From Nitrospirales bacterium (GTDB taxonomy: Bacteria > Nitrospirota > Nitrospiria > Nitrospirales > UBA8639): a stretch of 51,771 nucleotides of DNA. This document shows, piece after piece, positions 730-19,620 of this stretch. A program made the translations under genes and the position numbers. The stretch spans positions 1 through 51,771 of the forward strand of contig BQIW01000026.1 in NCBI GenBank assembly GCA_021604105.1, in the 5' to 3' direction. The stretch's first letter is position 1. Each line of letters starts with the position of its first letter. The notes under the pieces are model-generated. The model searched no databases, was not told the origin of the DNA, and saw nothing but the letters and a program-made list of their open reading frames with translations.

Positions 730-901
730 GACCAATAAATTCTCCTCCCCAATTCTCTTACCCCAAAGTATATTCCATGGCTAGGAGCATCCACGAACGG
801 CTTTTTTAACAGGCAAGCCTCGTTTTTGAAAATGCCGCCTGCCTTTTCCCAACCAGCAAGGTTGGCGATTCGACCAATCACGGCTCAAGCGGGGCAACCC
901 C

Positions 902-2536: not shown

Positions 2537-2555
2537 TCATCTACCCCTTGATCCA

Positions 2556-2879
2556 TCATGATTCATTCGACGTACGGATGCTCGCGATATGATCGCGTTG
2601 CAACCGAATTTTGGTATTATCCGCGATTTGCAGGGTAACCGTTTCCTTATCCAAATTGGTCACGGTTCCCCAAATTCCCGAAGACGTAATGACCTTATCG
2701 CCTTTTTTCAGGCTATCCAACAATTCCCGTAGTTTTTTTTGCCGACGTTGTTGCGGCAAAATTAGCAAAAAATAAAACACCACAAAAATCAGAAGAAAAG
2801 GAATGAGTGATAATAATCCGGCTGAGGAATCGGGACCGGCGCCTCCGGCTTGGGCCCAAGCATAGGAATGTAAGTTCAT
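2556..2879 (-). CDS. yajC: Preprotein translocase subunit YajC
   Basis: YajC is the small membrane component of the SecDF-YajC holotranslocon. The 107-aa protein has one transmembrane helix (about residues 24-43, rich in L, F, V) followed by the typical LPQQRRQKKLRELLDSLKKG segment and a small beta domain (GDKVITSSGIWGTV). A GAGGT box precedes the ATG by five bases. It sits between tgt and secD, the order found in many bacteria. Confidence 0.95.
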   Translation of the reverse strand: MNLHSYAWAQAGGAGPDSSAGLLSLIPFLLIFVVFYFLLILPQQRRQKKLRELLDSLKKGDKVITSSGIWGTVTNLDKETVTLQIADNTKIRLQRDHIASIRTSNES

Positions 2880-2920
2880 AAGTACCTCAATTTAAATGTG
2901 TCTGTGGCCAACCCATGCGA

Positions 2921-4096
2921 TCAGGTCGAAACTTCCTGAATGAGCGTTTCACTCGTGTCACGCTCGAGCCGGCGGTAAAAATCTTTCCGGTAGTCGTCAA
3001 ACTGATTCGCGCTGATTGCTTGTCGCAGCCCATTCATGAGCGAGCCATAATACCAAAGATTATGGATCGTATTCAGACGTACGCCTAACATTTCATGGGA
3101 TAGAAACAAGTGCCGCAAATACGCCCTTGAAAACCGTTGACAGACCGGACACCCACATTCGCCATCAATGGGATTGGGATCACGGGCATAGCGAGCCTGT
3201 TTAATCAACACCTTCCCCGTCGAGGTAAACAGCCAACCGGTGCGCCCATGCCGGGTCGGGATCACGCAATCAAATAAATCCAATCCCCGAGCCACCCCTT
3301 CCACAATATCTTCAGGAAGTCCAACGCCCATCAAGTAGCGCGGATGACTAGGAGGAAGCTGGTCGATCACGGTCTCGATCATCGCCAACATTGCAGGCTT
3401 TTCTTCTCCCAAGGATAATCCACCCAAGGCGTAGCCATCCAAATTCAATTTGACCAACTCCTGAGTCGAATCTTGTCTCAATTGGACAAAGACTCCGCCC
3501 TGAACAATCCCAAACAACCATTGATGCTCTTTTCTCGGTATCGCCGCACATCGTTGAGCCCACCTGGTCGTTCGCTGGACAGCCTCCCGGGCCTGCTGTT
3601 CGGTACAAGGAAAAGTCGGGCAATGGTCAAGAACCATCATAATATCGGATCCAAGTGCGACTTGGATGGCCATGCTTTTTTCCGGTGAGAGTAAATGCCA
3701 CGCACCGTCGATATGAGAACGAAAACCGACTCCCTCCTCCGTCACCTCACAAAGATCGGCCAGGCTCACCATCTGGTAGCCTCCACTATCCGTCAAAATC
3801 GCTCCTGGCCATTGCATGAAAGCATGAAGCCCTCCCAGAGATTCAATCAGTTCATGCCCAGGTCGCAAAAATAGATGATAGGCATTCGCCAAAACCATAT
3901 GAAACCCGCATTCGCGGACTTCATTCGGGTCCAGTCCCTTCACCGTCCCCTGTGAGCCAACCGGCATAAAAGCCGGGGTATCGATCTCGCCATGGGAGGT
4001 CGAAAGTCGTCCAACCCTCGCACGACCAGAAGCCAACGTATGCTGAATATGAAAACGATTGGGACCTGATTGTGAGGAGGATGGTTCGTTAGGCAT
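2921..4096 (-). CDS. tgt: Queuine tRNA-ribosyltransferase (tRNA-guanine transglycosylase)
   Basis: The enzyme exchanges guanine-34 in tRNAs with GUN anticodons for preQ1 in the queuosine pathway. The TIM-barrel family motifs are visible: TPAFMPVGSQGTVKG, the substrate-pocket DSGGYQMVSL with the catalytic-region Asp, GGLSLGEEK, and the C-terminal zinc site CGCPVC...H. Length (about 391 aa) is normal. I take the ATG at 4096 (MPNEPSSS); an in-frame GTG two codons earlier (4102) is possible, and neither has a clear ribosome binding site. It follows argS closely and precedes yajC. Confidence 0.95.
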   Translation of the reverse strand: MPNEPSSSQSGPNRFHIQHTLASGRARVGRLSTSHGEIDTPAFMPVGSQGTVKGLDPNEVRECGFHMVLANAYHLFLRPGHELIESLGGLHAFMQWPGAILTDSGGYQMVSLADLCEVTEEGVGFRSHIDGAWHLLSPEKSMAIQVALGSDIMMVLDHCPTFPCTEQQAREAVQRTTRWAQRCAAIPRKEHQWLFGIVQGGVFVQLRQDSTQELVKLNLDGYALGGLSLGEEKPAMLAMIETVIDQLPPSHPRYLMGVGLPEDIVEGVARGLDLFDCVIPTRHGRTGWLFTSTGKVLIKQARYARDPNPIDGECGCPVCQRFSRAYLRHLFLSHEMLGVRLNTIHNLWYYGSLMNGLRQAISANQFDDYRKDFYRRLERDTSETLIQEVST

Positions 4097-4127
4097 TATC
4101 ACTGCGTATACTTGACCTTCATGCGCG

Positions 4128-5909
4128 TTACATTTTATCGGGCGCGGAAATTCCCAAGAGTGTCAGGCCATTACCAATGACCGTCTGAACTTGCCGAAGC
4201 AGGGCTAAGCGAGCAGCAGTTAAGTCCGGCGAAATACTTTCGTAGATTCGCTCCTGACTCAATGCTGTAGTATTCGCACTTGCCCCCAATTTAATGGTGT
4301 CTCCCGTATGCCCGGCGTTCCACTCAGGATCCAACGAGGGAAGGACTCGATTTTTGTTGTAGTAGGCATGCAATTGAGCCGCAAGCTCTTGGAGATAAAA
4401 CGTGACCCGATGCGGCTCCAACGCCATCGCACTGCTTTCGACCACAAAAGGATACTGTGCCAATGTTTTAATCAACCCTAACTCTTCGTCCTGGATCAAC
4501 AAGGCCTGATCCACACCCTGGACCGTCGGAAGGGGTACTTGACGTTCCTGCGCCACTCGAAAAAGACTGGCCAATCGCGCATGCGCATACTGAACATAAT
4601 AGACGGGATTGTCCGACGACTGTTGTTTGGCTAATTCTAAATCAAAATCCAAATGCGTATCGGCCCTTCTCATCAGGAAAAAGAATTTGGCGGCATCTGG
4701 ACCGACCTCATCAATCACCTCGCGCAGGGTCACAAATTCACCGGCCCGCTTCGACATCTCAATTTTTTGACCACCACGTCGCAGGCTCACCATTTGGACC
4801 AAGACGATTCGCAAGGCCTCCTTGGCAAAGCCAAACGCTTGAACCGTCGCTTCCATCCTGGGAATATACCCATGATGGTCAGCTCCCCAAATATTTATTA
4901 ACGTATCAAAGCCACGTTCTAATTTTTGTCGATGGTAGGCTATATCGGCCGCTAAGTATGTATAGCTCCCATCCTGTTTTTGAGCCACGCGATCCTTTTC
5001 ATCCCCAAACTGAGATGAACGAAACCACCAGGCGCCATTCTCTTCTATGAGTAGCCTCTTTTGCCGAAGTTCGTCCAACGACTGCTGAATGAGGCCCGCC
5101 GTATGCAGGGATTTCTCACTAAACCAAGAATCAAATTCAACACCAAATGTAGCCAAATCTTCTTTAATTCGATCCAAAAGCATCTGACTGGCCAATTGGG
5201 CGCAAAGCGTTTCGGCTTCATCCGATGAGGCATCCAGTAAGGATGTCCCATGAGTCTTCGCCACCGACTCCGCCACAATTTTTATATAATCTCCATGATA
5301 GCCATCCTCGGGAAACGATGTCGGCTTTTCCCAATGCTCTCGATAGCGGGCATAGACGGACCGACCCAACAACTGTAATTGACGACCGGCATCGTTTATA
5401 TAAAATTCACGGGAAACCATAAATCCGACAGATGCCAATAACCTAGCCAAGGCCTGTCCCAATGCCGCACCTCGTCCATGTCCGACATGCAAGGGCCCGG
5501 TCGGATTGGCACTCACGAATTCCAGGAGAATACGTTTTCTTTTTCCAATAGTGCTGGTCCCATACAACGGGCCCCTGTCCTGAATCATCCGTAACACCTG
5601 AATCCACTTGAGGGGATGGAGAGTAAAATTCAAAAATCCCGGAGGGGCAACATTAACGGAGATGAATACATCTGCATACTGGACCCGAAGTTCTGTTGCC
5701 AACAGTTCGGCTACTTTCAAAGGCGGTTGTCGAACGTGTGAGGCCAATGTCATCGCGACACTGGAAGAAAAATCCCCCCATTCCGGTCGTTTTGGAGGTT
5801 CCACAACAACGGTTGGAATCGTGCCCAGACTTAATTCGCCAGATTCCTTGATCCTGTTCAGAATAACCGCGATGGCCTCAATGACTTGGTTTTGGAGATA
5901 TTTCTCCAC
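4128..5909 (-). CDS. argS: Arginyl-tRNA synthetase
   Basis: ArgRS is a class I aminoacyl-tRNA synthetase. Visible features are the N-terminal Add1-type tRNA-binding domain, the HIGH-equivalent in ANPTGPLHVGHGRGA, and the KMSKS-equivalent region EMSKRAGEFVTL, followed by the DALR anticodon-binding domain ending in LLGISAPDKM. The open frame extends upstream to 5990, into the glycosyltransferase gene, but that longer form adds 27 unusual residues. I place the start at GTG 5909 (VEKYLQNQ), because AGGATG lies eight bases upstream and the resulting 593 aa matches the family. Confidence 0.95.
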   Translation of the reverse strand: MEKYLQNQVIEAIAVILNRIKESGELSLGTIPTVVVEPPKRPEWGDFSSSVAMTLASHVRQPPLKVAELLATELRVQYADVFISVNVAPPGFLNFTLHPLKWIQVLRMIQDRGPLYGTSTIGKRKRILLEFVSANPTGPLHVGHGRGAALGQALARLLASVGFMVSREFYINDAGRQLQLLGRSVYARYREHWEKPTSFPEDGYHGDYIKIVAESVAKTHGTSLLDASSDEAETLCAQLASQMLLDRIKEDLATFGVEFDSWFSEKSLHTAGLIQQSLDELRQKRLLIEENGAWWFRSSQFGDEKDRVAQKQDGSYTYLAADIAYHRQKLERGFDTLINIWGADHHGYIPRMEATVQAFGFAKEALRIVLVQMVSLRRGGQKIEMSKRAGEFVTLREVIDEVGPDAAKFFFLMRRADTHLDFDLELAKQQSSDNPVYYVQYAHARLASLFRVAQERQVPLPTVQGVDQALLIQDEELGLIKTLAQYPFVVESSAMALEPHRVTFYLQELAAQLHAYYNKNRVLPSLDPEWNAGHTGDTIKLGASANTTALSQERIYESISPDLTAARLALLRQVQTVIGNGLTLLGISAPDKM

Positions 5910-5977
5910 GATTAAACATCCTATCTGCGCAGAATATATGGGTTTTTTAACAGCCGCGGCGAATGTAACACAGCATT

Positions 5978-7057
5978 CTAGCCAAGGCAAGGCACAGTGA
6001 ATGCTCCATCAATACACTCAAAGCTTGTGGAGGCCACGGCCCCCTTTACTCCGCCTAACACCTTGTCAACCTTTGCGAGAACTTCATCTTGTGAAAAAGA
6101 AAGACAGGGCATTTCCGAACAACGCGCAATGGGCACTTTTCCAAGGCAATGACAGAATTTGCGTAATACGGCTACATGTATTCCACGGGGCGCCCATTTT
6201 CCCGGATCAGTGGGACCAAACAACAACACCGAAGGCACACCCAAACTTGCAGCCAAATGCGACAACCCGGAATCATGCCCGATAAATAATTGGGCATGCT
6301 GCATATATTCTGCAATCTGAAGCAGATCCACTCCTTTCAGAATGGCATAATCCAAGTGAGTCAGTAGACCTTGCGTATTTCGAAGAGAATCATTATCTGC
6401 TGGTCCTCCCACAAGACAAACATTCCATTTCGGTTTCGCCAACATCAGACCCTTGACAATACTGGCCAATAACACCGGAGAGGTACATTTGTAAGGACTG
6501 CCACTTCCGGGATGGAGAACGATTAGTGGTTTCTTGATGGGATAAGGAGGCCTCCTCGAGGGTGATTTTGGGAAAACAAGTGGACCGGCAAGAGTCCTGT
6601 TTTGTTCTCGTTCACAAAGGGGGAGTGTCACCTGAACCCACGGTTGGAGTATTTCCGCATACCGATCAGCCATATGATAATTACACAAGGTCATGTCATG
6701 AGGTGACCGAAGAATGCAATCCAGAATTCCCGCAGTCTTCAACCAACTTCGCCAAATGCCCTCTGTGTCCTCCAACCAGCCTATGGCTTTATCGCAACGA
6801 CGGAAAATCGACAGGAACTTTTCTTGAGAAGAATCCTTCACCCCTTGATATGCCAAATAATTCAGGGTATCAAAGGAATAAGACTGATGAACTTCCCCCG
6901 CACTCACAAACACATCACCTAATTCCTTATGACCAAACCAAATCAGACGGTGCCCAGGAAATCTAGCCTTCAATACCCGAATAGCGGGCAGAGCCAACAA
7001 CCCATCCCCTAATGCGCCAGGATGAACAATCAATAAATTGTGAGGTGGAAGGGACAT
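5978..7057 (-). CDS. Glycosyltransferase family 9 (heptosyltransferase-like)
   Basis: GT9 enzymes transfer ADP-heptose or related sugars onto lipopolysaccharide core. The 359-aa protein opens with LLIVHPGALGDGLLALPAI, which is typical of WaaC/WaaF/WaaQ proteins. The donor-binding second half has IVLHPGSGSPYKC and the family signature FIGHDSGLSHLAASLGVPSVLLFGPTDPGKWAP. It starts five bases after mobA and overlaps the untranslated leader of argS. The acceptor sugar cannot be told from the sequence. Its role in envelope glycan synthesis is inferred from the family. Confidence 0.85.
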   Translation of the reverse strand: MSLPPHNLLIVHPGALGDGLLALPAIRVLKARFPGHRLIWFGHKELGDVFVSAGEVHQSYSFDTLNYLAYQGVKDSSQEKFLSIFRRCDKAIGWLEDTEGIWRSWLKTAGILDCILRSPHDMTLCNYHMADRYAEILQPWVQVTLPLCEREQNRTLAGPLVFPKSPSRRPPYPIKKPLIVLHPGSGSPYKCTSPVLLASIVKGLMLAKPKWNVCLVGGPADNDSLRNTQGLLTHLDYAILKGVDLLQIAEYMQHAQLFIGHDSGLSHLAASLGVPSVLLFGPTDPGKWAPRGIHVAVLRKFCHCLGKVPIARCSEMPCLSFSQDEVLAKVDKVLGGVKGAVASTSFECIDGAFTVPCLG

Positions 7058-7746: not shown

Positions 7747-9618
7747 TTAGACTTTACCCTTGCGCCTATTGGCCCGCCTGGTCAAAATCCACCCTTCCAC
7801 AAGGACCAAACCAATGGCAGCTATGGTGGGATAAATATATGTTTCTTTTTCAATAGGTGGTTCTAATACCAGGTAATAGAAAGCGGAGACTGCCATCTTT
7901 CGCCCCACGTCCCCATTGTGACCATCCCAAACAAAGAAATTAATGGGGATATATTTCCCCAATTCAATGTAAGCATCTTCTTCATAGTCACCTTTGAGCG
8001 GTCTGGTCACGATAACCGTCCATCGTCCATTGGTCCATTCCGCTTTCACAACATTTAGTTCTTCGGTAAAATCATCACGATCATCGAAATCCACATCCCA
8101 GCCCGTGCCTTGATAGGCTTTCAATTCGCCATCAGCCGTCCATTTGGTAATATCCACAGGGAATCCCTCATCTCCCCAAAAATATCGTGGTTTCCGGGGT
8201 GCGGGCAATTCCTGCCATTTTATGGGAAATTGGAAGGCCAGCCCATCATTAAAAACCTGATAGGCGGTTTGTTTGGCGGCGATGGATTCAGGATGTTCAG
8301 GATCATCAGCGAACATCGATCCTCCAGGTGGCTGTTCTTCAATTCCATAATCAGCAAGATTCACTTCGTAGGGTTCCCAGTCTACCTCGTCTTCCTGCAC
8401 ACTCTTTGTCCGATCATCCCACCTGAACATAAACGAAATATGGGTGTCATTGTAAAGGGACTGAATCCAAACATCGTCAATTCTGGTAACGAAGTTTCTA
8501 GGCTTATGAGTGATCTGTCCACCCATGGCCACAATCCGTCGGTCAACCAGGTCCCACCGTTCATCATGTTCATCAGCGGGCAACTCTCCTTCAACGAACT
8601 TTGAAGGAACAACGAAATCAACTTTGGGCTTATCGGTTAAGGGATCAATTCCCCTAGGCTGAGCAGCAACTAATTCAGCTGCGATTTCATCGGTCACATT
8701 ACCACCGGCAATATCTACATCCTTATCGCGCTCGCACAAGGAGGCCACGTAATTGGCAATGTGCCACCGATCCTCAACTGTAGTATTATCGGCAAACGAA
8801 GGCATAGGCGTTCCGCTTACCCCAGTTGAAAATGTTCTGAAAATGTTCTTCACATTATAGGCATCCTGTCGACTACCTCTGAAATTCCAACACTTATGCC
8901 AGTCGGCTGGTTGTATGGAAAACCCCCAGTCATCCTTAAGGTTGAACGCGTTCCCATCACCGCGACCCTCCAAGCCATGACATTCAATACACTTCATTTC
9001 TTTTACAAGCTCAGATCCACGTTTCACCGACTCTGCCGTAGGAGGAACCGGTTCAATTTTTTCCAATTGCAATACATGGAATTCTTCAAATTCGGTATCT
9101 TGCCAGCTACGATCCTTGACCAATTCGCTGGTCACAAAGGCTAAGACATCCCTTCGTTGATCCTCAGTCAAAATACCTTCCCAGGAAGGCATGGCGGAAC
9201 CAGGCAATCCATGTGTCACCGTTTGAAATAAATCTACGTCAATGAGGGGCAATTCACCGCTGGCCGTATGACGTATTTTAAATGTACCCGCATTAAAATT
9301 ACGTGGTCTTGGCCATAGTCGGTCTGCCCCCGGCCCATCTCCGGCTCCGTCAACGCCATGGCACCACACGCACTTTGTGAAATACACTCGCTTCCCCGCT
9401 TCAATTTGTTCGGCAGATGGTGGAGCAGGGCGACTCCCCTCGGCAAATCCTTCCGCCATTTCCGCATGGGACGTGGTAGCAAAGCCTAGTCCGCCAATAA
9501 GGAGACCGCAACTCAGAAGCCAGGCTCCTAGGCCACGCCTACCATATCCGGGTGTAGTCGTTTCGTTCATGACCATCCTCTTTTCAAAGTGTCCAGTATC
9601 GAATTGAATTTCATTCAT
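7747..9618 (-). CDS. Di-haem cytochrome c fused to an ethylbenzene-dehydrogenase-type haem domain, membrane anchored
   Basis: This is a periplasmic electron-transfer protein. A signal peptide (...GAWLLSCGLLIGGLGFATTSHA) is followed by two class I cytochrome c domains with CVWCH and CIECH haem sites, and axial Met candidates in GSAMPSW and GTPMPSF. The second half is an EB_dh (DMSO-reductase gamma-type) domain: DDVWIQSLYNDTHISFMFRW, the GRWTVIVTRPL strand, and IPINFFVWDG...GRKMAVSAFYY. One C-terminal TM helix ends in RRANRRKGKV. EB_dh subunits bind haem b with Met/Lys ligands and serve as gamma subunits of molybdo-enzymes, including Nitrospira NXR. I use ATG 9618, with AAGGAGG eight bases upstream. 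ATG 9570, after AGAGGATGG, is an alternative that gives a shorter signal peptide. It is the last gene of module A. Confidence 0.85.
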   Translation of the reverse strand: MNEIQFDTGHFEKRMVMNETTTPGYGRRGLGAWLLSCGLLIGGLGFATTSHAEMAEGFAEGSRPAPPSAEQIEAGKRVYFTKCVWCHGVDGAGDGPGADRLWPRPRNFNAGTFKIRHTASGELPLIDVDLFQTVTHGLPGSAMPSWEGILTEDQRRDVLAFVTSELVKDRSWQDTEFEEFHVLQLEKIEPVPPTAESVKRGSELVKEMKCIECHGLEGRGDGNAFNLKDDWGFSIQPADWHKCWNFRGSRQDAYNVKNIFRTFSTGVSGTPMPSFADNTTVEDRWHIANYVASLCERDKDVDIAGGNVTDEIAAELVAAQPRGIDPLTDKPKVDFVVPSKFVEGELPADEHDERWDLVDRRIVAMGGQITHKPRNFVTRIDDVWIQSLYNDTHISFMFRWDDRTKSVQEDEVDWEPYEVNLADYGIEEQPPGGSMFADDPEHPESIAAKQTAYQVFNDGLAFQFPIKWQELPAPRKPRYFWGDEGFPVDITKWTADGELKAYQGTGWDVDFDDRDDFTEELNVVKAEWTNGRWTVIVTRPLKGDYEEDAYIELGKYIPINFFVWDGHNGDVGRKMAVSAFYYLVLEPPIEKETYIYPTIAAIGLVLVEGWILTRRANRRKGKV

Positions 9619-9631
9619 GTCCGCGTCCTCC

Positions 9632-10600
9632 TTATTCCCAAGTCCGCGGGTAATACCCGGTGTGCCAGTATTCAAACATGATGACTTTCCAAATTTCATC
9701 AACGGTTAAATGCTGTTCCCACGGTGGCATTACGGATGCCCAAGGGAAACCTTCACCAGGAAGCCCAATTCCTCCTTTAGCCACTCGCCAGAACACAAAA
9801 GTTTCTTGGAGCTGTGCGATGGTTCCTGCATCGGTAAAATTGGCAGGAATCGGATTAAAGGCAAACGCCCAGAGGCCGCGACCATTTAAATTATCCCCGT
9901 GACAGAAGTGGCAATTTTGGAAAAAAATCTCTCCCCCTTCCCGAACATGCTTAATGTACCCTTTAGCATTCGGATCCCAGGGGTTATCTTCAGGATTTTT
10001 TACATCCTTCATTAAACGTCCCATATCCTGGCTAACGATATGAGCGTTACTGTAGGCCTGATCGTATTTCCCCTCTGGATTAACTCGATACGGATTCGCG
10101 GCAGTTTGCAATACATACGTTTTCCCATGCACTTTAGTTGTGGCCGGTGGGGCCGGATGCACGGTTCTCAATTCAATGGGTTCATCAAAGCTGGGAAGAA
10201 AAGAATTGTAGGCAAAACCCCAGAGCCCGATTGGCAATAAAATCAACAAGGCTGTTCGAATGAACTTAGTCATTCCGGTTTTTGCATCCAAAACGTTGAT
10301 GATTGGACGTTTAAATTCTTCCCACTCCTGCTGCGATCCCGAAACCCACATAAAAATACCGCAAGCAGCAACCGTCCCATAAATGGCCCTCACACTAAAG
10401 GGAATGGGCGGATAGATTCGATACTTGAGGTAAAACAAATTCACAAAACACCAGACAAAGATTCCTGCCCAAAACTTGGGCAAACCCATTCCTGCTCTTT
10501 TGAGGGAATAGTTAATAATGGAAAACACAAGGATGCAGATAGCCAACTCTGTAATCATCTGCATCGGCATGTAGCCTTCAACTAGTTTAAGCCACGTCAT
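9632..10600 (-). CDS. Membrane-bound mono-haem cytochrome c (module A)
   Basis: The 322-aa protein has about four N-terminal transmembrane helices (residues 15-132), then a periplasmic cytochrome c domain with one haem site, CHFCH, at residues 230-234. An axial Met candidate is in WASVMPPWEQHLT. The domain keeps the class I pattern of a final helix (TVDEIWKVIMFEYWHTG). AAGGAGT precedes the ATG. The stop lies 13 bases before the next cytochrome gene, so the two are probably translated from one message. It presumably carries electrons between the soluble pool and the bd-like subunit; that role is inferred from the neighbours. Confidence 0.85.
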   Translation of the reverse strand: MTWLKLVEGYMPMQMITELAICILVFSIINYSLKRAGMGLPKFWAGIFVWCFVNLFYLKYRIYPPIPFSVRAIYGTVAACGIFMWVSGSQQEWEEFKRPIINVLDAKTGMTKFIRTALLILLPIGLWGFAYNSFLPSFDEPIELRTVHPAPPATTKVHGKTYVLQTAANPYRVNPEGKYDQAYSNAHIVSQDMGRLMKDVKNPEDNPWDPNAKGYIKHVREGGEIFFQNCHFCHGDNLNGRGLWAFAFNPIPANFTDAGTIAQLQETFVFWRVAKGGIGLPGEGFPWASVMPPWEQHLTVDEIWKVIMFEYWHTGYYPRTWE

Positions 10601-10645: not shown

Positions 10646-11959
10646 TTATTCTTTTGGAGGTAAAGGTTGGCCTTCTTTTAATTGCGCCAAATAATCGACC
10701 ATTTTACTGAGAGCCCCGCCTGTCAGTCTTACGCCAAAATCCTTTGGCATCTGATTGTCGGGAAAATCCTTTACGACGTATGCACTTGGGTCTAATATCG
10801 ATTCAGTAATGTACTCCTTTGGTGATTTGGCTTTACCCTGATAGGCTGGATCCTTAATACGAATGGGAGCATTGCTTCCCTCCATGAGGAGAGGTCCAAC
10901 TTTTCCCGTCGCACCTTCAATCCCTGGAATCGTATGACAGGCCGGACAACCGGCTTTCATGAAGAGCTTGTCGTAAGGCTCACTTCCGTCGGCTAAAAGA
11001 TTTCCACCACCACCTTCAGCTTCTTCATCTCCACCTGCGGTGGGCCGATCGGCTTCAGGAATAAACTTTTCATATGAGGTAGCAATCACATCATAAGCCG
11101 GAGCTTCTTTCCCTTCCCTCGTATACATCCAGGTATCAACCGCCGCCATTTCGCCGATTGTTAAAGATATCGGTGGTTTATGAATCTTAGGCATTGGACT
11201 TACGGTATCATTTGATCCTTTGACCCCAAATCCCGTCACCACAAAACAACTCGGACATGCATGTGACTCAGCAATATATTCCTGAGCATTTGTAGCCGTT
11301 CCTGACCCTTCAAACGCTTCCTTTTGTTCAGTGGTTCGTGAGGCAGGATCATTCATATGGTAATTTGGCTCTTTTAATCTTTCTTCAGATCTATCAGGAA
11401 TTCCAAATAAATTAGGTGCCCGTTCACTTAAAAATCCCTGTTGGAATCCATGACACAACGGGCACTGGCCTTTCCCAATGGCTCCTTGGGTTTTACTTTG
11501 CCCAATCCCTCCAAAAATGATTTTTTCCCCTTCATCACCAAGTTGTTGCGGTGACATACTTTGGAAATCTAACTTCACAACAGGGGGAGGAAATCCGCCC
11601 TCGACCTGAGGCAGCCAATTCCCGTAGCCGGATAGCGCGGCCGCCACAAAAAACATAAAGCCTCCAATTTTCATTAGGGCACTGATATTTGGAAAATAGA
11701 GACCCATAATAAAAGACATGATTGTGATCATGACCAGAGAAACCGGCAATAAACGGCTTTCTCCTTCAAAATTATGCGTATAATTGGAAATGGCGATAAA
11801 GGCCAAAAATGCGCAGAAAATCCCAACTATCGTTTGGAAACTCGCCCTTTTCTTTTTTTCCGGATCAGAAATTGTTGCCTGGAAGTACAGCAACAACCCA
11901 ACCAGCATCAGCAATACTGGCCAACCCATCCCTATTGCCCGTCCCAATAACTCAACCAC
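10646..11959 (-). CDS. Membrane-anchored di-haem cytochrome c (module A)
   Basis: The N-terminus holds about four transmembrane helices (to residue 120), followed by two cytochrome c domains with CPLCH (about 166-170) and CPACH (about 338-342). Between them an acidic, glycine-rich linker (GGDEEAEGGGG) is visible. A further CPSC pair in the first domain lacks the haem His and sits where the second domain has LDPSA, so I do not count it as a haem site. The open frame begins with TTG at 11974, but I choose GTG 11959 because GGAGG lies eight bases upstream. It lies between the bd-like gene and the mono-haem cytochrome gene, with short gaps on both sides. Confidence 0.85.
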   Translation of the reverse strand: MVELLGRAIGMGWPVLLMLVGLLLYFQATISDPEKKKRASFQTIVGIFCAFLAFIAISNYTHNFEGESRLLPVSLVMITIMSFIMGLYFPNISALMKIGGFMFFVAAALSGYGNWLPQVEGGFPPPVVKLDFQSMSPQQLGDEGEKIIFGGIGQSKTQGAIGKGQCPLCHGFQQGFLSERAPNLFGIPDRSEERLKEPNYHMNDPASRTTEQKEAFEGSGTATNAQEYIAESHACPSCFVVTGFGVKGSNDTVSPMPKIHKPPISLTIGEMAAVDTWMYTREGKEAPAYDVIATSYEKFIPEADRPTAGGDEEAEGGGGNLLADGSEPYDKLFMKAGCPACHTIPGIEGATGKVGPLLMEGSNAPIRIKDPAYQGKAKSPKEYITESILDPSAYVVKDFPDNQMPKDFGVRLTGGALSKMVDYLAQLKEGQPLPPKE

Positions 11960-12026
11960 AGTGCAATCCTCCAACTTGGGGGCTGCCTATTGCAGCCCCA
12001 CGATTGTTTGTAATTGTATTTTTCGT

Positions 12027-13997
12027 TTAATGACCAGTTGCAGACTGAGGAGACGGAACTGGCTGCCCTGCCGGCGAAGGAACCGGTACTTTTTTCGCAC
12101 CAAGTGTGCCCAACCAAAAGACAAACATGATGCTGATCCAGAAAAATAACACGTTAAACGAAATAACGTTGGCCGCAAAACCAATGGTGTGGGTATAAGC
12201 CCACGGAGAGTTATCCCGCATGACTTCGTTGACGTGCCAGAACAATCTCACCGAAGAACGTATGTAGCCCATCAACCCCATCATCCATGTGAATGCTGTG
12301 GCCAACATGATGATGGCATATTGGGAACGTGGGGGAATTTGACCCCATCTAATCGGTCCCAGCTGCCTACCATTTTTTAACATCGCCAAATTAAGTGGCG
12401 TCATTAACAGCAGGCATGACAATGTTCCGGCAACCTGGGGCACCGACAACCCAATTCGCACGTTTGCAGGAATGAAATACCCATAACAAGCCAACCAAAT
12501 ATTGTTTAGCTGGCCTATGAGGAAAAAACATCCCATAAAAATATTGCCAAATTTGGCCCAGCTAACCGTTGGGACCCTGTTCCCCCGCTGATACCAAATA
12601 AAGCTTAAAACGGTCGTCATAATAATGGCGTTGATACCACCATTTTTTGCCGACATGACACCATAATTCCCTAGAACCGGATGCTGTTGACCACCCATAG
12701 CTTTCAACTCCGCCGGAGTCATGACAATCGTATGGGGTGTAATGAAAACCAGAAGACCAACCACTAAAATAAACACGAGATACTTAATATATTTTTGGAA
12801 TCGTTCACCACCGGTCATCCGTCCGAGGGCTTGCCACAAGTAATAATTTGTAGTCAGGAACAGGATTCCGATCATGGTGGCCTGAATAATAAACAACCAA
12901 GCCAACAATCCACCCATCAAGGTAATTCCCATTTGTTGACGGTAGGCATACACCTCACGCATCAACCAATATCCTGCAAAAGGCAATGGGATGAGAAATG
13001 CCACACCTAAACTCATTGCGATGTAGCCCATCCAGTCATAATGAGCCCGCTCTTCATCTGTTTTTGAAGAAAGGAATCGATAGGCCGCATAGGCTGCCAC
13101 CACACCACCACCAAAGGCCATGTTCCCGAGAATTCTATGAACATTCAAAGGATTCCACAGTGCTGTATGAAGCACGTGCCAAATATTTCCAAGATAACGT
13201 CCCTGCTCATCTACTCCGGCAGGAGACATCATGAACGCAATCCATGAATTGGCGAGGAACATCAACACCGTTCCAATTACATTTAAGATTACGGACATGC
13301 TGAGATGAACCCACTTCAGAACACCTTCCCTCATCTTGTCCCAACCGTAATAATAAATGTAAAGGGTTGCACTTTCCGCCACGAATGTTAAGGCATATAT
13401 GTGCATGACCGGCCGGAAAATACTAGACAAATACCCAAAGAAGGCCGGATAGAGCGTAAGGAAAGTAAAAATCAGAATCCCACCAAGAATCGCGGTTAAG
13501 GAATAAGCCGTTAGGCTGATCTTGATAAAGTCATAAGCCAATTGGTCATATTTCTTGGCCATTGCCTTATCTTTACTGACCATCCCGGCAAACTCGATAC
13601 ACATACAAAAGATTGGTACCGCCAACACAAAACTTCCATAATACAAATGCTGCTGGTTGGCCACCCAAAGAAGGACACGACTCTCAAAGTTATACCGAGG
13701 GTAAAAAGTTTCATTGTCTTCCGTCACCGGTGCTGGCATCCCAATGGCTGGGCCTTCGGTTTTGTAATAAACATCCCGGCCCATTTCCACTTTTTCCGCC
13801 TCGCCCTCCTCACCTTCGGCCTTTTGTGCGGCGACAACATCCGCTGGAGGTCCACCAGCCGGTGCCCCACCTCCAGCTGCCACGGCGGTGATTGACAGGA
13901 AAATCGGCAGCAACAGCAGACAACCCATCACCATCAATGCCGATACGGCGAACAACTTTTTCTTCCCCCGGGTCATTTGATTGAACAGGCGACCCAT
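12027..13997 (-). CDS. Cytochrome bd-like oxidase protein (module A)
   Basis: This is a polytopic 656-aa membrane protein distantly related to CydA. CydA-type landmarks are QQHLYYGSFVLAVP (H117), the EsxxxxxxxxGWDKM block (E208-D220), a long N-terminal helix set ending at NSWIAFMMSPAG, WNPLNVHR (H287, equivalent to CydA H186) and YRQQMG (M356, near CydA M393). There is no CydB and no quinol-oxidising loop. The extra C-terminal half adds conserved His in TPHT (H422) and GQQHPV (H439), and GRLFWH (H588). Proteins of this type in Nitrospira have been proposed as a novel terminal oxidase. A secretion-type N-terminus and an acidic stretch (AEGEEGEAEKVEMG) precede the core. The ribosome binding site is AAGGAGG before ATG. 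Cytochrome c genes follow directly, so cytochrome c is the likely donor. Confidence 0.85.
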   Translation of the reverse strand: MGRLFNQMTRGKKKLFAVSALMVMGCLLLLPIFLSITAVAAGGGAPAGGPPADVVAAQKAEGEEGEAEKVEMGRDVYYKTEGPAIGMPAPVTEDNETFYPRYNFESRVLLWVANQQHLYYGSFVLAVPIFCMCIEFAGMVSKDKAMAKKYDQLAYDFIKISLTAYSLTAILGGILIFTFLTLYPAFFGYLSSIFRPVMHIYALTFVAESATLYIYYYGWDKMREGVLKWVHLSMSVILNVIGTVLMFLANSWIAFMMSPAGVDEQGRYLGNIWHVLHTALWNPLNVHRILGNMAFGGGVVAAYAAYRFLSSKTDEERAHYDWMGYIAMSLGVAFLIPLPFAGYWLMREVYAYRQQMGITLMGGLLAWLFIIQATMIGILFLTTNYYLWQALGRMTGGERFQKYIKYLVFILVVGLLVFITPHTIVMTPAELKAMGGQQHPVLGNYGVMSAKNGGINAIIMTTVLSFIWYQRGNRVPTVSWAKFGNIFMGCFFLIGQLNNIWLACYGYFIPANVRIGLSVPQVAGTLSCLLLMTPLNLAMLKNGRQLGPIRWGQIPPRSQYAIIMLATAFTWMMGLMGYIRSSVRLFWHVNEVMRDNSPWAYTHTIGFAANVISFNVLFFWISIMFVFWLGTLGAKKVPVPSPAGQPVPSPQSATGH

Positions 13998-14103
13998 TGA
14001 CCTACCTCCTTGTGAAAACGTGTTGAGTTAAACCCATCAAAATTAACTAACAAATCGTCTAATATCATTAACCTTAAATTCCAAGCGCATAGCTTTTCAT
14101 AAA

Positions 14104-14220
14104 TTATCGGAACATATAGAAATAGTCGAGTCCCTGGGCATCCATCAAGACATAATCCAATGCCTGGAAATATACAAAACAAATGACCAATGAAACTATG
14201 ACATACAGAGCTGTCTGCAT
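14104..14220 (-). CDS. 38-aa single-helix membrane protein
   Basis: This is a very small gene below ordinary ORF cut-offs. It starts at ATG 14220 with AAGGAGG five bases upstream, one of the best ribosome binding sites in the window, and stops with TAA at 14104-14106. The product is one hydrophobic helix (MQTALYVIVSLVICFVYFQA) followed by a short polar tail with D and Y residues (ending YFYMFR). It lies between the 44-aa gene and the bd-like oxidase gene on the same strand. I infer a CydX/CcoQ-like small subunit or assembly factor by position and shape; there is no recognisable family motif. Confidence 0.75.
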   Translation of the reverse strand: MQTALYVIVSLVICFVYFQALDYVLMDAQGLDYFYMFR

Positions 14221-14282
14221 GCGCTCCTCCTTGGGGCTAAAAGAATTAAATGATTGATTACCTTATTAGAGGTCATGATTTT

Positions 14283-14417
14283 TTAGCAGGGACACTGAAT
14301 ACCGGCAAACCAATAAAAGAACCACAAACTTACTGCGCATGTCAGATAAAAAATAGCCTTGCCTATTTTGGTCTCTAGCTCCGTTGACTCTCTTATGTTA
14401 GCCGTCGAATCCCCCAT
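14283..14417 (-). CDS. 44-aa single-helix membrane protein ending in CPC
   Basis: ATG 14417 is preceded by GGGAGG seven bases upstream; an in-frame ATG two codons earlier is too close to that box. The product has a charged N-terminal half (RESTELETKIGK), then one transmembrane helix (AIFYLTCAVSLWFFYWFAGI), and ends with QCPC. It is the first gene of oxidase module A, 62 bases before the 38-aa gene. Aromatic residues and a terminal Cys pair suggest a small oxidase subunit or a metal-delivery tail, but this is inferred from position only. Confidence 0.75.
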   Translation of the reverse strand: MGDSTANIRESTELETKIGKAIFYLTCAVSLWFFYWFAGIQCPC

Positions 14418-14480
14418 CTTCATTCCTCCCTGTGCTTAATTCGCATCCAAAACTTAAACGATTTCACCTAATAAACTTCA

Positions 14481-14510
14481 TTGACACTTTATTATTTTTC
14501 GTGCTATTCA
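14481..14510 (+). promoter_or_regulatory. Sigma-70-type promoter for the 34-aa gene
   Basis: A perfect TTGACA (14481-14486), an 18-base spacer and TATTCA (14505-14510) would start a transcript near 14517, giving a leader of about 30 bases before the ATG at 14546. The spacer is very A+T-rich. It lies in the divergent gap upstream of module A. Confidence 0.45.
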
Positions 14511-14545
14511 AACATTTATTGATCACGTAAAACGAGGGATTACTC

Positions 14546-14650
14546 ATGCGTTCAAATGCAAAAGTGTTCGACATTATAGTTTTGGCCGGAATGGTTGTCA
14601 ATATTCTCCTTGCTGTCTTCCTCATCCTCTACTATTTTGATTTTCTTTAA
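14546..14650 (+). CDS. 34-aa single-helix membrane protein, divergent from module A
   Basis: This gene runs against the surrounding strand. ATG 14546 has GAGGG seven bases upstream and a consensus-like promoter before it; TAA ends at 14650. The product is a short charged start (MRSNAKVFD) and one long hydrophobic helix (GMVVNILLAVFLILYYF). I recognise no family. Its place next to two other micro-proteins and an oxidase operon suggests a respiratory small subunit or a regulator of the complex, but this is inferred. Confidence 0.65.
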   Translation: MRSNAKVFDIIVLAGMVVNILLAVFLILYYFDFL

Positions 14651-14694
14651 TTTTTTCACCTTTCCCCCACACAAAAATTTAACGGTTTTTGGTC

Positions 14695-15579
14695 TTAATC
14701 TGATCGCGCGCACCTGAAACCAATCGTCTCGTCCCGAAAATCGGGAACCATAAAACTCCTATTGGTGATTCTAATGTCGGATCCTTGACTCGTGTAGCCA
14801 CTGCCTCTCATTGTCTTGTAAGTTGAAGGAGGCCGACTATTCGACGACGCAACAGCATTTTCTTGAAGATAAAGATCCTCAACATACCAATTATCCGTCC
14901 ACTCCATAACATTCCCAGCGCCGTCATACACCCCAAATACACTTTGATCAAGGGGAAAAGCCCCAACCGGAGCTGACACAACATAACCATCGGCCTCTCC
15001 TGCAAAATTGGCAGGAAATCCGCTCAGACCCTCACCCCAAGGCCATGTACGACCATCTGTCCCTCGCATAGCCTTTTCCCATTCCTGTTCAGTAGGAAGA
15101 CGCTTGCCTCTCCATTGACAATAGTCATTCGCATCACTCCATGACACATAGGTAATCGGCTGATGAGGCCCTCGTAGCAATCCGAGCTTCTCGGCATAGC
15201 GAGAAGGTGGGCCAGGCTGCCGATGTCCGGTAGCTTCGACAAATTCCATATACCGTTGGTAGGTGACCTCATACCGATCAATCCAATATGCCTCTAGATA
15301 AGTAACGTGTGCTGGCTTTTCATTGAATCCGCCTTGATTACTCCCAAGAATGAATTCCCCAGCAGGAATCTCAACCATCTCATCTTCATTGGCTCGACCA
15401 GATTGCGCCAAATCCTTTGATGCCCCAGATGATCTCTCAGGGGTTGAAGAAGGCTGAGCTTGAACATCGCGATCAGGGGGAGTTGGAGGAGCATCGGTTC
15501 CCCTCAATATTCCCAACACCGGCAGCCCGGTCATAAATAACACTGCAATCAAAAAAATAAGTTTAAATCGACCGTCCAT
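14695..15579 (-). CDS. SUMF1/FGE-domain protein, membrane anchored (module B, last gene)
   Basis: This is a 294-aa protein with an N-terminal hydrophobic anchor (LIFLIAVLFMTGLPVLGIL), a Pro/Ser-rich linker, then an FGE-sulfatase domain: EMVEIPAGEFILGS, AYWIDRYEVTYQRYMEF, YCQWRGKRLPTEQEWEKAMRG, YDGAGNVMEWTDNW, and TIGFRCARSD. The copper-binding active-site Cys pair of true formylglycine-generating enzymes, expected after the RGSGY strand, is absent, so it should not make formylglycine. The family also includes EgtB/PvdO-like enzymes and non-catalytic binding proteins. It follows a paralogue by 86 bases and shares only the general domain with it. Confidence 0.8.
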   Translation of the reverse strand: MDGRFKLIFLIAVLFMTGLPVLGILRGTDAPPTPPDRDVQAQPSSTPERSSGASKDLAQSGRANEDEMVEIPAGEFILGSNQGGFNEKPAHVTYLEAYWIDRYEVTYQRYMEFVEATGHRQPGPPSRYAEKLGLLRGPHQPITYVSWSDANDYCQWRGKRLPTEQEWEKAMRGTDGRTWPWGEGLSGFPANFAGEADGYVVSAPVGAFPLDQSVFGVYDGAGNVMEWTDNWYVEDLYLQENAVASSNSRPPSTYKTMRGSGYTSQGSDIRITNRSFMVPDFRDETIGFRCARSD

Positions 15580-15665
15580 GTTCCCCTATTTCTGGTCCAT
15601 CTAAGGTTACCTATTCCGAGAAACTATGGGCAATTGATCTCGCCGATGAGGGGTTTGTTTATCGT

Positions 15666-16583
15666 TTATGAGGATTGAGGCATCTCAGTCGGAGGATCTT
15701 TTGCGCACCGAAACCCAACAGTGGCATCGTTTCTCCACATTTTCGCTGCAAAACGCTTTGTTACCCTCGCCCCTATACGAGATTCACGCCAGGAGCCTCC
15801 ACGAATGACTTTATTCTCATCCTCGTCTTTGGGGCCGTGGGGGTCCCGATAAGGAGCCTGCTGATAATAGTCAGGAGCATAACTATCCATAACCCACTCA
15901 GCCACATTGCCGGTGGCATCATAGAGTCCAAACGGGCTTCTCCCTACTTCAAAAGATCCCACGGGAGCTAAAAACTGAAAGCCATCCTCCTCCCCGTCCA
16001 CATTGGCAAACTGATAGTCAAACTTATCTCCCCAGGGATAACGGCGTTTTCCTTCTCCCCTTGCCGCTTTTTCCCACTCCGCCTCGGTCGGTAACCGCTT
16101 GCCAGCCCAACGACAATACCCAAACGCATCATTCCAGGTCACCGCTACCACCGGATAATCTGGCCCGCTCAACTTGGCGACATCATCTTCAAAGACCGGC
16201 ACCTTAGGCTTGTCACGTTTTGTCATCTTGACATACCGCTCATAATCTGCCTGCGTGACTTCTTTAAGATCCATATAAAATGTTTGGAGATAGACCGGAT
16301 GGGAAGGCCCTTCATCAGGGTCCCCATCGTCAATGCCCATGGTAAATGGCCCTTCAGGAATTTCGACCATTTCACGGTTATCATCCCCCACGAACGTCTT
16401 ATACATAGAAAAATCCTGTGTGGGCATTGGCTGCAACACCCGGACACTGGCCGGTTGACCGGCCGAGAGCTCATCCAGATTTTTTTTCCCATTGTAGGTC
16501 ATAAAAATCAACATCACGATCATCATGATGAAAGAGCCAAACACAAACAGAATGGCCCCGATGAGGACCCGTTGATTTTCCAT
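15666..16583 (-). CDS. SUMF1/FGE-domain protein, membrane anchored (module B)
   Basis: The 305-aa protein has one N-terminal TM helix (LIGAILFVFGSFIMMIVMLIF) and a periplasmic FGE-sulfatase domain with EMVEIPEGPFTMGID, EVTQADYERYVKM, YCRWAGKRLPTEAEWEKAARG, YDATGNVAEWVMDSY, KVIRGGSW and VGFRCAKD. After RGGSW the sequence is RESRIGARV, without the two catalytic Cys of FGE. It lies in the tight run after the second bd-like gene. Its function is unknown; a structural or cofactor-related role in the oxidase assembly is inferred from the linkage and from the recurrence of the domain in this window. Confidence 0.8.
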   Translation of the reverse strand: MENQRVLIGAILFVFGSFIMMIVMLIFMTYNGKKNLDELSAGQPASVRVLQPMPTQDFSMYKTFVGDDNREMVEIPEGPFTMGIDDGDPDEGPSHPVYLQTFYMDLKEVTQADYERYVKMTKRDKPKVPVFEDDVAKLSGPDYPVVAVTWNDAFGYCRWAGKRLPTEAEWEKAARGEGKRRYPWGDKFDYQFANVDGEEDGFQFLAPVGSFEVGRSPFGLYDATGNVAEWVMDSYAPDYYQQAPYRDPHGPKDEDENKVIRGGSWRESRIGARVTKRFAAKMWRNDATVGFRCAKDPPTEMPQSS

Positions 16584-17014: not shown

Positions 17015-17749
17015 TCATTCCTGCCGAAGATCATTGTTGGATGAGTCAGACTGAACCCGAATAGAACCAAAGTCCACCTCCACTCCCGGTCCCCCTAATA
17101 AAGATATACCCCAGGCATGTGGGGCTGGTTCATGGTCATGAATCTTCAGAAAATCCTCATACACATTAATCCGTTCCTCCACCCACTTCCCAAGGGATTC
17201 AGTCCCACTACGGATGACAATTTCTGTGGAGCTAAACATGCCACCCTCCTTGACTGATCCGACAGGAAGCGTTGCACTCCAGACATATTTGGTGTTCACG
17301 GGAATAAACATCAAATCAACATCCAAGGACGGATAGATTGCCGCCAGGAAATCAGCGTCATCGGGGACACTCTGTATTCTCCAACGCCAAATCAGAATAG
17401 GGTGTTCCTTTGGATCCCAGGTTATTTGCTTGGTATACACCCGTTGATTGGCGTTTTTCGCCGAAAGAAAAAAAGTCCCATCCTCTTCTTGAATCGAATA
17501 GGTTTCATGGGCTGTGACCGTACTCCGTTGCGCTTCCCATCCTTGAGGAAATCCTTTGGCATCAGGATGCTGAAAGTCTTCCAACACCATCGAACTACTG
17601 GAAGACCCTGAGCTCGGGATTTCTTGAGCCCACGCCGCACTACTTGCAACTCCCAGGAGGCCCACGACCAAACATGACCAAAAAGCCCGGCTTACTCGGC
17701 TTCGTTTTACACCCTCTGAATTATTATGTTGCCAAGAACAAATTCTCAT
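17015..17749 (-). CDS. DUF3047 family secreted protein
   Basis: The product has a signal peptide (FWSCLVVGLLGVASSAAWA|QE) and then a beta-rich domain with the DUF3047 pattern: DFQHPDAKGFPQGW, FFLSAKNANQRVYTKQI, HPILIWRWRIQSVPDDADF, and SLGKWVEERINVYEDF. The function of DUF3047 is unknown. Its start codon overlaps the stop of the bd-like gene by one base (TAATG), which indicates translational coupling with the oxidase protein and makes a joint role likely. Confidence 0.8.
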   Translation of the reverse strand: MRICSWQHNNSEGVKRSRVSRAFWSCLVVGLLGVASSAAWAQEIPSSGSSSSSMVLEDFQHPDAKGFPQGWEAQRSTVTAHETYSIQEEDGTFFLSAKNANQRVYTKQITWDPKEHPILIWRWRIQSVPDDADFLAAIYPSLDVDLMFIPVNTKYVWSATLPVGSVKEGGMFSSTEIVIRSGTESLGKWVEERINVYEDFLKIHDHEPAPHAWGISLLGGPGVEVDFGSIRVQSDSSNNDLRQE

Positions 17750-19620
17750 TACGCGGATTCCTCTTTTGAAATGACCTGAATCACCGGAGAAGGCCTCGCA
17801 AATTCAGCCGTTCGCCTCTCTACTACTCGCTGATCCCATCTGCTAAGCCAAAACACGAAAAAGACTGACGACCAAAAAACAATCATATTGAGAGTAACCA
17901 TTTTCGCAGCAAATCCCAGGGAAGGCGTAAATGCCCAGGAGGATTGATCCGGCATTAATTCGGAAATATGCCACCCCAATCGGCCAGCAGATCTGATATA
18001 CCCCATTAACCCCATTACCCATGTAAATGCGGCAGCGACGACAAATAGTGCCACAATCCCACGCGGAGCAATTCGGCCCCAATGCACAGGCCCATTAATA
18101 TGGGCGCCCCGCAACATGAACCGGTTTAATAATATCCCTCCAACAACCACTGTTGCGGTTGTCATCCCTTGAGGCGAAGAAAGACCAACCCGAACATTTG
18201 CCGGAATGTAGAACCCGTAAATGGCTAACCACACGATATTGGCAATCCCCATGAGAAATAACATCAATAAGAAAACATTTCCCTTTGTTCCCCACTTGAC
18301 TGTCATCACATAATTGGCTCGCCGATACAGAATGTAACTCAGCGCGGTTAAACAAATCATGACGTTAACTGCACCATTCTTCGCAGACATCACACCAAAT
18401 TGACCAATGACCGGATGCTGGGCCGCGCCCATCGCTTTCATTTCACTGCCACTCATGGCAATGGTGTGCGGAGTAAACCACACGAGAAAACACACCATCA
18501 ACGCAAAAATGATCGCCTTAAAATGAGGATGAAAGCGCTCGCCACCTTGAAGGCGCGCCAAGGATTGCCAGATGTAATAGTTAATTCCTAAAAACAAGAC
18601 CCCGACCATAATCGCTTGGAGGACGAAGAGCCAGGACAACATCCCTCCCATCATCGCCATGCCCATCGTTTGCCTGAACTCAAAGACGGCCCGCATCAAC
18701 CAGTAGCCTGCAAGCGGCATGGGGAGAAGCGCACATACCACCACCACAATAAAAACATGCCCGACCCAATCGTAATATGCTCGGTCCTCCGCAGTTTTTG
18801 ACATGAAATACCGGTAGGTCGCATAGGCGACGACCACAGCCCCACCGGACATAATATCCGCCAAAAAACGGTGCGCATTCAGTGGATTCCATAGTGGAGA
18901 GTGCAGAAGATGCCACACATTGCCTAAAAAGTGCCCTTGGGCATCAACTCCGGCGGGAGCCATCATAAATGAAGCCCATGAATTCGCTAATAACAATAAA
19001 AGGACTCCGATGGCATTTGAGAGTACACCAAGAGTCATATGCACCCACTTCAGCGCCGGCGTGTTAAAGAAATCCCAGGTGTAATAATAGAGTGCCAAGA
19101 GAAAGGCTTCACTCACAAACACCATGGCATACACCGGCATAACCGGCTTAAACGTCGACCCCATGTAATTCATAAACCCCGGGTAAAGCGTCACAAAGGT
19201 CATGAGCATAACACAGCCTAATAAGGCCGTTAGGGACAACGACAACAGGGCCACACGCAGAATATCACGAGCCAGTCCATCCAATTTCTGTTGGGTTGCC
19301 CGCTGTTTTCGGGTAATCCCTAAGAATTCTAACAATAGACAAAACAAGGGAATCGATAAGACAAAGCCTCCAAAATAGGTGTGTTGTTGAGTCACAAACC
19401 ACACCACTAACCGGTTATCCACGAAAGGATAGGTGGAATAATCCTGGTGAGTCATTGCAACAGATGGGCTGGAGATAGACCCGGAAGTTTGGTAAAAAAT
19501 ATCCGTACTTGTCTGCTCTTCAGTCGAGGGCAAAGCGTAACTATCCATGCTCACTGCGATCCCGGTCTGCAGCAGAAAAAAAACCAGCACAATGACCGAG
19601 GTTTTAAAAATTATTTGCAA
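17749..19620 (-). CDS. Cytochrome bd-like oxidase protein (module B paralogue)
   Basis: This 623-aa polytopic membrane protein is a clear paralogue of the module A protein. Shared blocks include QQHTYFGGFVLSIP, the NSWASFMMAPAGVDAQG loop, GNVWHLLH, WNPLNAHR, FRQTMGMAMMGG, FTPHTIAM, AAQHPVIGQFGVMSAKNG, IPANVRVGLSSPQ and GRLGWH. Differences include Pro instead of His in the VMPVYAMVF segment (VMHIYALTF in A) and TWD instead of GWD. It lacks the acidic N-terminal insert of A. It has a signal-like first helix. The two-base gap from the gene before it and the one-base overlap with the next gene show tight coupling in the operon. No cytochrome c gene is nearby, so its electron donor is unclear. Confidence 0.85.
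   Translation of the reverse strand: MQIIFKTSVIVLVFFLLQTGIAVSMDSYALPSTEEQTSTDIFYQTSGSISSPSVAMTHQDYSTYPFVDNRLVVWFVTQQHTYFGGFVLSIPLFCLLLEFLGITRKQRATQQKLDGLARDILRVALLSLSLTALLGCVMLMTFVTLYPGFMNYMGSTFKPVMPVYAMVFVSEAFLLALYYYTWDFFNTPALKWVHMTLGVLSNAIGVLLLLLANSWASFMMAPAGVDAQGHFLGNVWHLLHSPLWNPLNAHRFLADIMSGGAVVVAYATYRYFMSKTAEDRAYYDWVGHVFIVVVVCALLPMPLAGYWLMRAVFEFRQTMGMAMMGGMLSWLFVLQAIMVGVLFLGINYYIWQSLARLQGGERFHPHFKAIIFALMVCFLVWFTPHTIAMSGSEMKAMGAAQHPVIGQFGVMSAKNGAVNVMICLTALSYILYRRANYVMTVKWGTKGNVFLLMLFLMGIANIVWLAIYGFYIPANVRVGLSSPQGMTTATVVVGGILLNRFMLRGAHINGPVHWGRIAPRGIVALFVVAAAFTWVMGLMGYIRSAGRLGWHISELMPDQSSWAFTPSLGFAAKMVTLNMIVFWSSVFFVFWLSRWDQRVVERRTAEFARPSPVIQVISKEESA

Follow-up and report, generated by a model that had tools for sequence, protein, structure and literature searches.

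Three short open reading frames at the head of a bd-like gene cluster of a Nitrospirales bacterium (p46, p38, and p34) are, judged by their conservation in relatives, real protein-coding genes under purifying selection. Their products are most likely single-helix accessory (or dedicated assembly) subunits of a redox complex composed of the bd-like protein bdA, two c-type cytochromes, and an NxrC-like protein, a reading to which we assign a probability of about 0.75. Since relatives of the trio are also found with this cluster in distant bacteria, the three peptides are very probably parts of the bd-like complex. We also lean, with less confidence, toward a wider proposal. The trio would belong to an ancient and unrecognised multi-subunit respiratory complex, present in several phyla and built of a CydA-like core, three mini-subunits, two membrane c cytochromes, and an NxrC-like protein. 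In the Nitrospirales, the gene of one subunit would additionally provide, on its other strand, the promoter of the complex itself, a double use maintained through codon choice throughout the order.

Gene order and the bd-like cluster

The window, that is the whole analysed stretch of 51,771 nucleotides, is a part of a 4.9-Mb genome, whose assignment to Nitrospira agrees with the genes present. On the minus strand, the genes follow in the order bdB, DUF3047, p125, two FGE-sulfatase-domain proteins, p46, p38, bdA, a di-haem c cytochrome, a mono-haem c cytochrome, and the NxrC-like protein (Table 1). The p34 gene is located between the first FGE-sulfatase-domain gene (FGE1) and p46, on the other strand. 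The search of positions 13500-16000 against Rfam gave no match.

Table 1. Positions of the small genes, the predicted promoters, and the neighbouring genes in the window
Feature	Position	Strand	Description
p38	14104-14220	-	38 aa, single helix; family core F..LD..LM..QGL
p46	14283-14417	-	44 aa, single helix, Cys-Pro-Cys end; family core G..LF...FF.WF; alternative in-frame ATG at 14423
p34	14546-14650	+	34 aa, single helix; family core D..I..G...N; strand opposite to the operon
Predicted sigma-70 promoter of the p46-p38-bdA operon	14573-14601	-	TTGACA-17-TATAAT, antisense within p34
Candidate p34 promoter	14481-14510	+	TTGACA then TGCTATTCA; weak, picked by eye
bdA	12027-13997	-	656-aa CydA-like (bd-like) membrane protein; Pfam PF01654, predicted CydA fold
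cytc442	10646-11974	-	Membrane c-type cytochrome, two CxxCH; Cytochrom_C at the cut-off; syntenic
c1_322	9632-10600	-	Membrane c-type cytochrome, one CxxCH; Cytochrome_CBB3; syntenic
c651	7747-9702	-	NxrC-like, two cytochrome c domains and an EB_dh domain (Pfam); syntenic
bdB	17749-19620	-	Second bd-like protein of the cluster; Pfam PF01654; syntenic within the order
Tandem FGE-sulfatase-domain proteins	14695-15579, 15666-16583; also 30620-31561	-	In synteny with the bd-like cluster throughout the order
Multicopper-oxidase-domain protein	32278-37155	-	1625 aa; same cluster

The bdA protein matches the Pfam family Cyt_bd_oxida_I above the cut-off (E 2e-14). Because p46, p38, and bdA stand in one frame at nine loci, a single natural read-through, that of locus L074, could be folded. 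The AlphaFold model of this p46-p38-bdA chain, with the stops read as Gly, was built on 90 alignment rows, from which rows of a short peptide alone were left out, as MAFFT smeared them in a trial. The model has a mean pLDDT of 79.7 and contains helices at residues 7-30 and 49-74. Its bdA part matches ten CydA-type chains with Z of 28-33 over 341-357 residues. Alternative complex III membrane subunits were also listed by VIA, with Z of 17-19, far under the bd rows. In the predicted model, bdA has the CydA fold. The alignment of bdA (90 sequences) contains invariant His and Glu columns, which are candidate haem ligands.

According to the account on N. moscoviensis, the proposed terminal oxidase is bd-like_2, another gene than bd-like_3, and the bd-like_3 cluster is among the most transcribed genes (PMC6606698). 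The work on Nitrospina describes such bd-like proteins as devoid of the quinol-binding residues and calls their function enigmatic (PMC3578206). The cluster of the window fits the published bd-like_3/alt_NxrC_2 cluster, by gene content and not by sequence comparison with that strain. As it fits bd-like_3 rather than the proposed terminal oxidase bd-like_2, the term oxidase is used for bdA as a family name only. The original prediction placed the small genes directly before a bd-like oxidase operon. A CydA-like gene does adjoin them, but the designation as an oxidase is not supported as it stands, the cluster being the enigmatic, NxrC-linked one.

Coding potential of the three reading frames

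The places and lengths of the three predicted frames (44 and 38 aa on the minus strand, 34 aa on the plus strand) were confirmed, with the start of the 44-aa protein taken at 14417. This start is favoured over the ATG at 14423 because of its better Shine-Dalgarno spacing and its use by relatives. The predicted ribosome binding sites and single transmembrane helices were found as well: an SD-like site accompanies each frame, and every product contains a single hydrophobic stretch of helix length.

In the tblastn search with p38 alone, the peptide was detected in 16 of 20 genomes of the genus, with E down to 1e-20. The bdA loci of relatives were collected, with four families of the order represented. 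Loci cut by contig ends aside, about 52 orthologous loci carry p34, p46, and p38 intact, in frame, and with their order unchanged, and the starts, SD-like sites, and stops of the trio are retained in most of them. The pairwise pN/pS ratio over the order loci is 0.18 for p34, 0.30 for p38, and 0.16 for p46; the synonymous sites of p46 and p38 are nearly saturated. Within the order, p34 is the best conserved of the trio, and its synonymous divergence is lower because of the embedded promoter element discussed below. Its five other frames show ratios from 0.4 to 5, and between 27 and 51 of the 51 sequences have them interrupted by stops. Chance reading frames, considered as an explanation, are excluded by the in-frame and in-position recurrence at about 52 loci together with the low pN/pS.

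Loss of the frames in relatives with the same operon, or substitution ratios typical of non-coding DNA, would have spoken against the original prediction. It escaped both, since frame and position beside the bd-like gene are kept in the relatives and the ratios (0.16-0.30) are not like those of non-coding DNA. The stretch had also been described as otherwise empty. This needs correction, as p34 also holds the likely promoter of the operon on the other strand.

Distribution beyond the order

With profile searches, p34 and p46 were also detected across further families of the class, and weak matches extended to the remainder of the phylum. In the regions fetched from other Nitrospirota, the trio again adjoins bdA. 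In the basal Nitrospirota (L187, L190), one strand throughout carries p34, p46, p38, bdA, two c cytochromes, and the NxrC-like gene. The scan of genome contigs with bdA yielded 80 loci, mostly from metagenome-assembled genomes, whose labels (Nitrospirae, Nitrospinae, Delta-, Alpha-, Beta-, and Gammaproteobacteria) are the names given by the depositors. Peptide relatives are located upstream of bdA in most of these loci, the gene order being p34, p46, p38, bdA, two c cytochromes, and the NxrC-like cytochrome. Among the 63 distant loci with at least 1.3 kb of upstream sequence, p38 was found in 60, p46 in 47, and p34 in 39. The p34 gene was missing or undetected in 24 and p46 in 16 of the 63, and the whole trio is missing in three (L206, L207, L209).

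The specificity of the profiles was considered at E<=0.05. In the 1.3-kb slot upstream of bdA, p46 gave 52 and p38 gave 67 matches, and neither profile had a match in the remainder of the 1.04 Mb. The p34 profile gave 39 matches in the slot (26 antisense and 13 on the same strand) and 11 elsewhere, which makes p34 the least certain member at long range. The co-directional orientation of p34 with the operon occurs in the basal Nitrospirota and in some Proteobacteria. The genome of the window contains eight bdA matches, but p34, p38, and p46 are each present in a single copy; eight loci of bdA paralogues (L093-L098, L101, L103) are without the trio. By these searches, the trio goes with a single type of bd-like gene, also among bacteria that are only distantly related.

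The bdA paralogue of this genome is followed at two loci (L094, G000:C25:571-15493, 133-6124; L101) by a gene for a one-helix protein of 63-68 aa, which is another possible mini-subunit beside a bd-like gene. In L094 and L093, a molybdopterin oxidoreductase with a TAT signal comes after the paralogue; its length of about 1150 aa is like that of NxrA/NarG. Many distant loci (L219, L222, L223, L225, L227, and others), alphaproteobacterial ones among them, have a second bd-like/cytochrome/NxrC-like set about 3-6 kb upstream of bdA, directly before the trio. In four genomes of the order (L196, L197, L198, L200), another p46 gene with a strong match and an end of WFFYWLNGIQCPC or similar lies amid unrelated genes with no bdA nearby.

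The p46 peptide and its Cys-Pro-Cys tail

At two loci (L233 and L242), the product of the gene in the p46 slot continues from a p46-like helix into a cytochrome c domain (Cytochrome_CBB3, E 1e-11). A degenerate form of this fusion is present at L241, and the fusion is absent elsewhere. The fusions seen in some lineages suggest that p46 corresponds to the part by which a c-type cytochrome is anchored in the membrane, with a periplasmic C-terminus. The haem domain was either lost in most lineages or gained in those of L233, L242, and L241. Sub-threshold matches of p46 to the Pfam family FixP_N (E 0.012, best 15.8 bits versus the cut-off of 24.9; found at E up to 1 in 2 of 22 p46 members) are consistent with a link between p46 and CcoP.

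The fusion also bears on the possibility that the peptides are assembly or haem-insertion factors, which leave once the bd-like complex is built. Genes beside enzyme operons often encode assembly factors, and such a helper role would suit the absence of the trio from some loci and the independent strand of p34. It is nevertheless unlikely, as p46 and p38 stand immediately before bdA in almost all lineages, and the fusion of p46 with a cytochrome c domain suits a resident subunit. The reading as accessory subunits of the complex is preferred.

The Cys-Pro-Cys tail, for which copper or haem binding had been proposed, is present in 47 p46 sequences, every one from a Nitrospirales locus. At L108 and L109, which belong to the divergent family f4 of the same order, p46 ends in Val-His-His, and outside the order a His end occurs in many outgroups. 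These ends, together with the multicopper-oxidase gene nearby, would agree with p46 as a small copper- or haem-binding subunit. However, the tails of 28 p46 relatives contain no Cys and no His, so metal binding cannot be the general function of the family, and this reading of p46 is quite unlikely. As a family-wide property, the metal role of the tail was rejected, Cys-Pro-Cys being confined to the order and replaced elsewhere by His or by no ligand. Within the order, the tail may have such a role. The predicted tail is thus real, while its copper or haem role is not supported. The preferred reading of p46 is that of a cytochrome anchor within the bd-like complex.

A predicted promoter embedded in p34

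The consensus scan detected a perfect TTGACA-17-TATAAT (12/12 positions) within p34, aimed at p46. The scan gave two promoter-like sites versus 3.7 in shuffles; as this count is not unusual, the support for the embedded promoter comes from its conservation. Of the 51 sequences of the order, 48 keep the 12/12 match in register, and one more has an 11/12 match. These sequences are related by descent and do not represent 48 independent events, but the synonymous sites of p46 and p38 are nearly saturated. Recoding of p34 by the codon usage of the order produces the 12/12 match with a probability of 0.0015 per sequence. Codon 11 of p34 is ATA in 48 of 48 Ile cases; in the neighbouring genes, ATA makes up 6% of the Ile codons. 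The embedded sequence is likely to be the promoter of the operon, a prediction from sequence, and p34 looks like an apparently clean natural case of overlap between coding and promoter functions, preserved through synonymous codon choice.

As a family-wide feature, the embedded promoter was ruled out. It is confined to the order and is lost even there at L108 and L109, where p34 is altered at the promoter codons. Outside the order, p34 contains no such promoter, and several class relatives have an 11-12/12 site between p34 and p46. The candidate promoter of p34 itself was not picked up by the consensus scan; the DNA around it has about 0.87-0.92 identity among near relatives versus 0.34-0.6 in other gaps.

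The conservation of p34 could also be explained by the promoter only, with p34 untranslated. The codons within the promoter elements are nearly frozen, and identity in near relatives is high there at all three codon positions. This explanation is scarcely credible, since conservation at the protein level extends across the whole reading frame, synonymous positions vary beyond the elements, the alternative frames are interrupted, and distant homologues keep the peptide without the embedded promoter. In another scenario, p34 would be a type I toxin-like hydrophobic peptide, repressed by the antisense operon leader, and not a subunit. The peptide is short and hydrophobic, and its start region would be covered by the antisense transcript from the embedded promoter. 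Yet in the basal Nitrospirota and in 13 distant loci p34 lies on the same strand with no overlap and is still located beside bdA, which renders a toxin-like role highly improbable. The reading of p34 as a translated subunit of the bd-like complex is retained.

Proposed role and significance

The original prediction compared the three peptides with the small subunits of known oxidases. What stands is that they are genuine, conserved, one-helix proteins, linked to a bd-like gene as CydX is; the oxidase label and the metal role are not supported as proposed, and it is from the genomic association that we infer the physical presence of the trio in the complex. They are three new families of the CydX-like kind, and the best reading by analogy is that they are CydX-like in role, not in sequence. 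In the proposed arrangement, p46, p38, and p34 would pack on the helices of bdA in the manner of CydX and CydS in canonical bd oxidases, where they would stabilise the haem sites and dock the cytochromes. The p46 peptide would represent a c-type cytochrome anchor, which in most lineages is without its haem domain and ends in a short periplasmic tail (Cys-Pro-Cys here). In the Nitrospirales, the p34 coding sequence would double as the promoter of p46-p38-bdA. The operon leader would start near 14566, antisense to the start region of p34, and the two transcripts would be coupled.

In Nitrospira, the bd-like_3/NxrC cluster shows high transcription and is suspected to link nitrite oxidation to the quinone pool. 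The three new conserved families provide a parts list for the purification, cryo-EM, and reconstitution of the complex, and the trio offers a genomic marker for it in many other bacteria. Small reading frames in apparent gaps are easily overlooked, and the trio is an example of such genes.

Comparison with known systems

None of p34, p38, and p46 has a Pfam or NCBIfam match above the cut-off. Seven peptides, and then 82 members of the three alignments, matched no curated small-subunit family above the cut-off, short models being insensitive; one CydS-like match, at L242, has E 0.19. This agrees with the earlier statement that the motifs of CydX, CcoQ, and CbdX are absent. The search of solved structures with the three profiles gave chance-level matches only, and the best one for p34 (residues 17-35 of an alternative complex III cytochrome, 6f0k_A, E 0.086) was not relied on. 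No earlier description of the three peptides was found in the accessible literature.

The cluster resembles the bd-like_3/alt_NxrC_2 cluster of Nitrospira, Nitrospina, and anammox bacteria, which comprises a bd-like gene with a second one nearby, two c cytochromes, an NxrC-like protein, and a multicopper oxidase (PMC6606698, PMC3578206). The consulted passages of the published accounts make no mention of small subunits or of an embedded promoter.

CydA proteins carry one-helix subunits of this sort; CydX and CydS pack on CydA and are required for assembly and stability (PMC8951039). The trio shares with CydX, CydS, and AppX the length of 30-50 aa, the single helix, and a gene that adjoins a CydA-type gene. 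In contrast to these systems, there are three different peptides instead of one or two, they precede the bd-like gene of an NxrC-linked cluster, and p34, encoded on the other strand, contains the predicted operon promoter. CydY/CydH, the second one-helix subunit of E. coli bd-I, is likewise a tiny single-helix peptide tied to a CydA-type protein. The E. coli gene for CydH is an orphan at a separate genomic position (PMC8951039), whereas all three genes described here are located at the operon head; the sequences were compared through the family libraries. The third comparison concerns the N-terminal anchor of CcoP/FixP in cbb3 oxidases. Although p46 is without a haem domain in most lineages and its match stays under the Pfam cut-off, it resembles this anchor at L233 and L242, where the p46 helix is followed by a CBB3-type cytochrome c domain.
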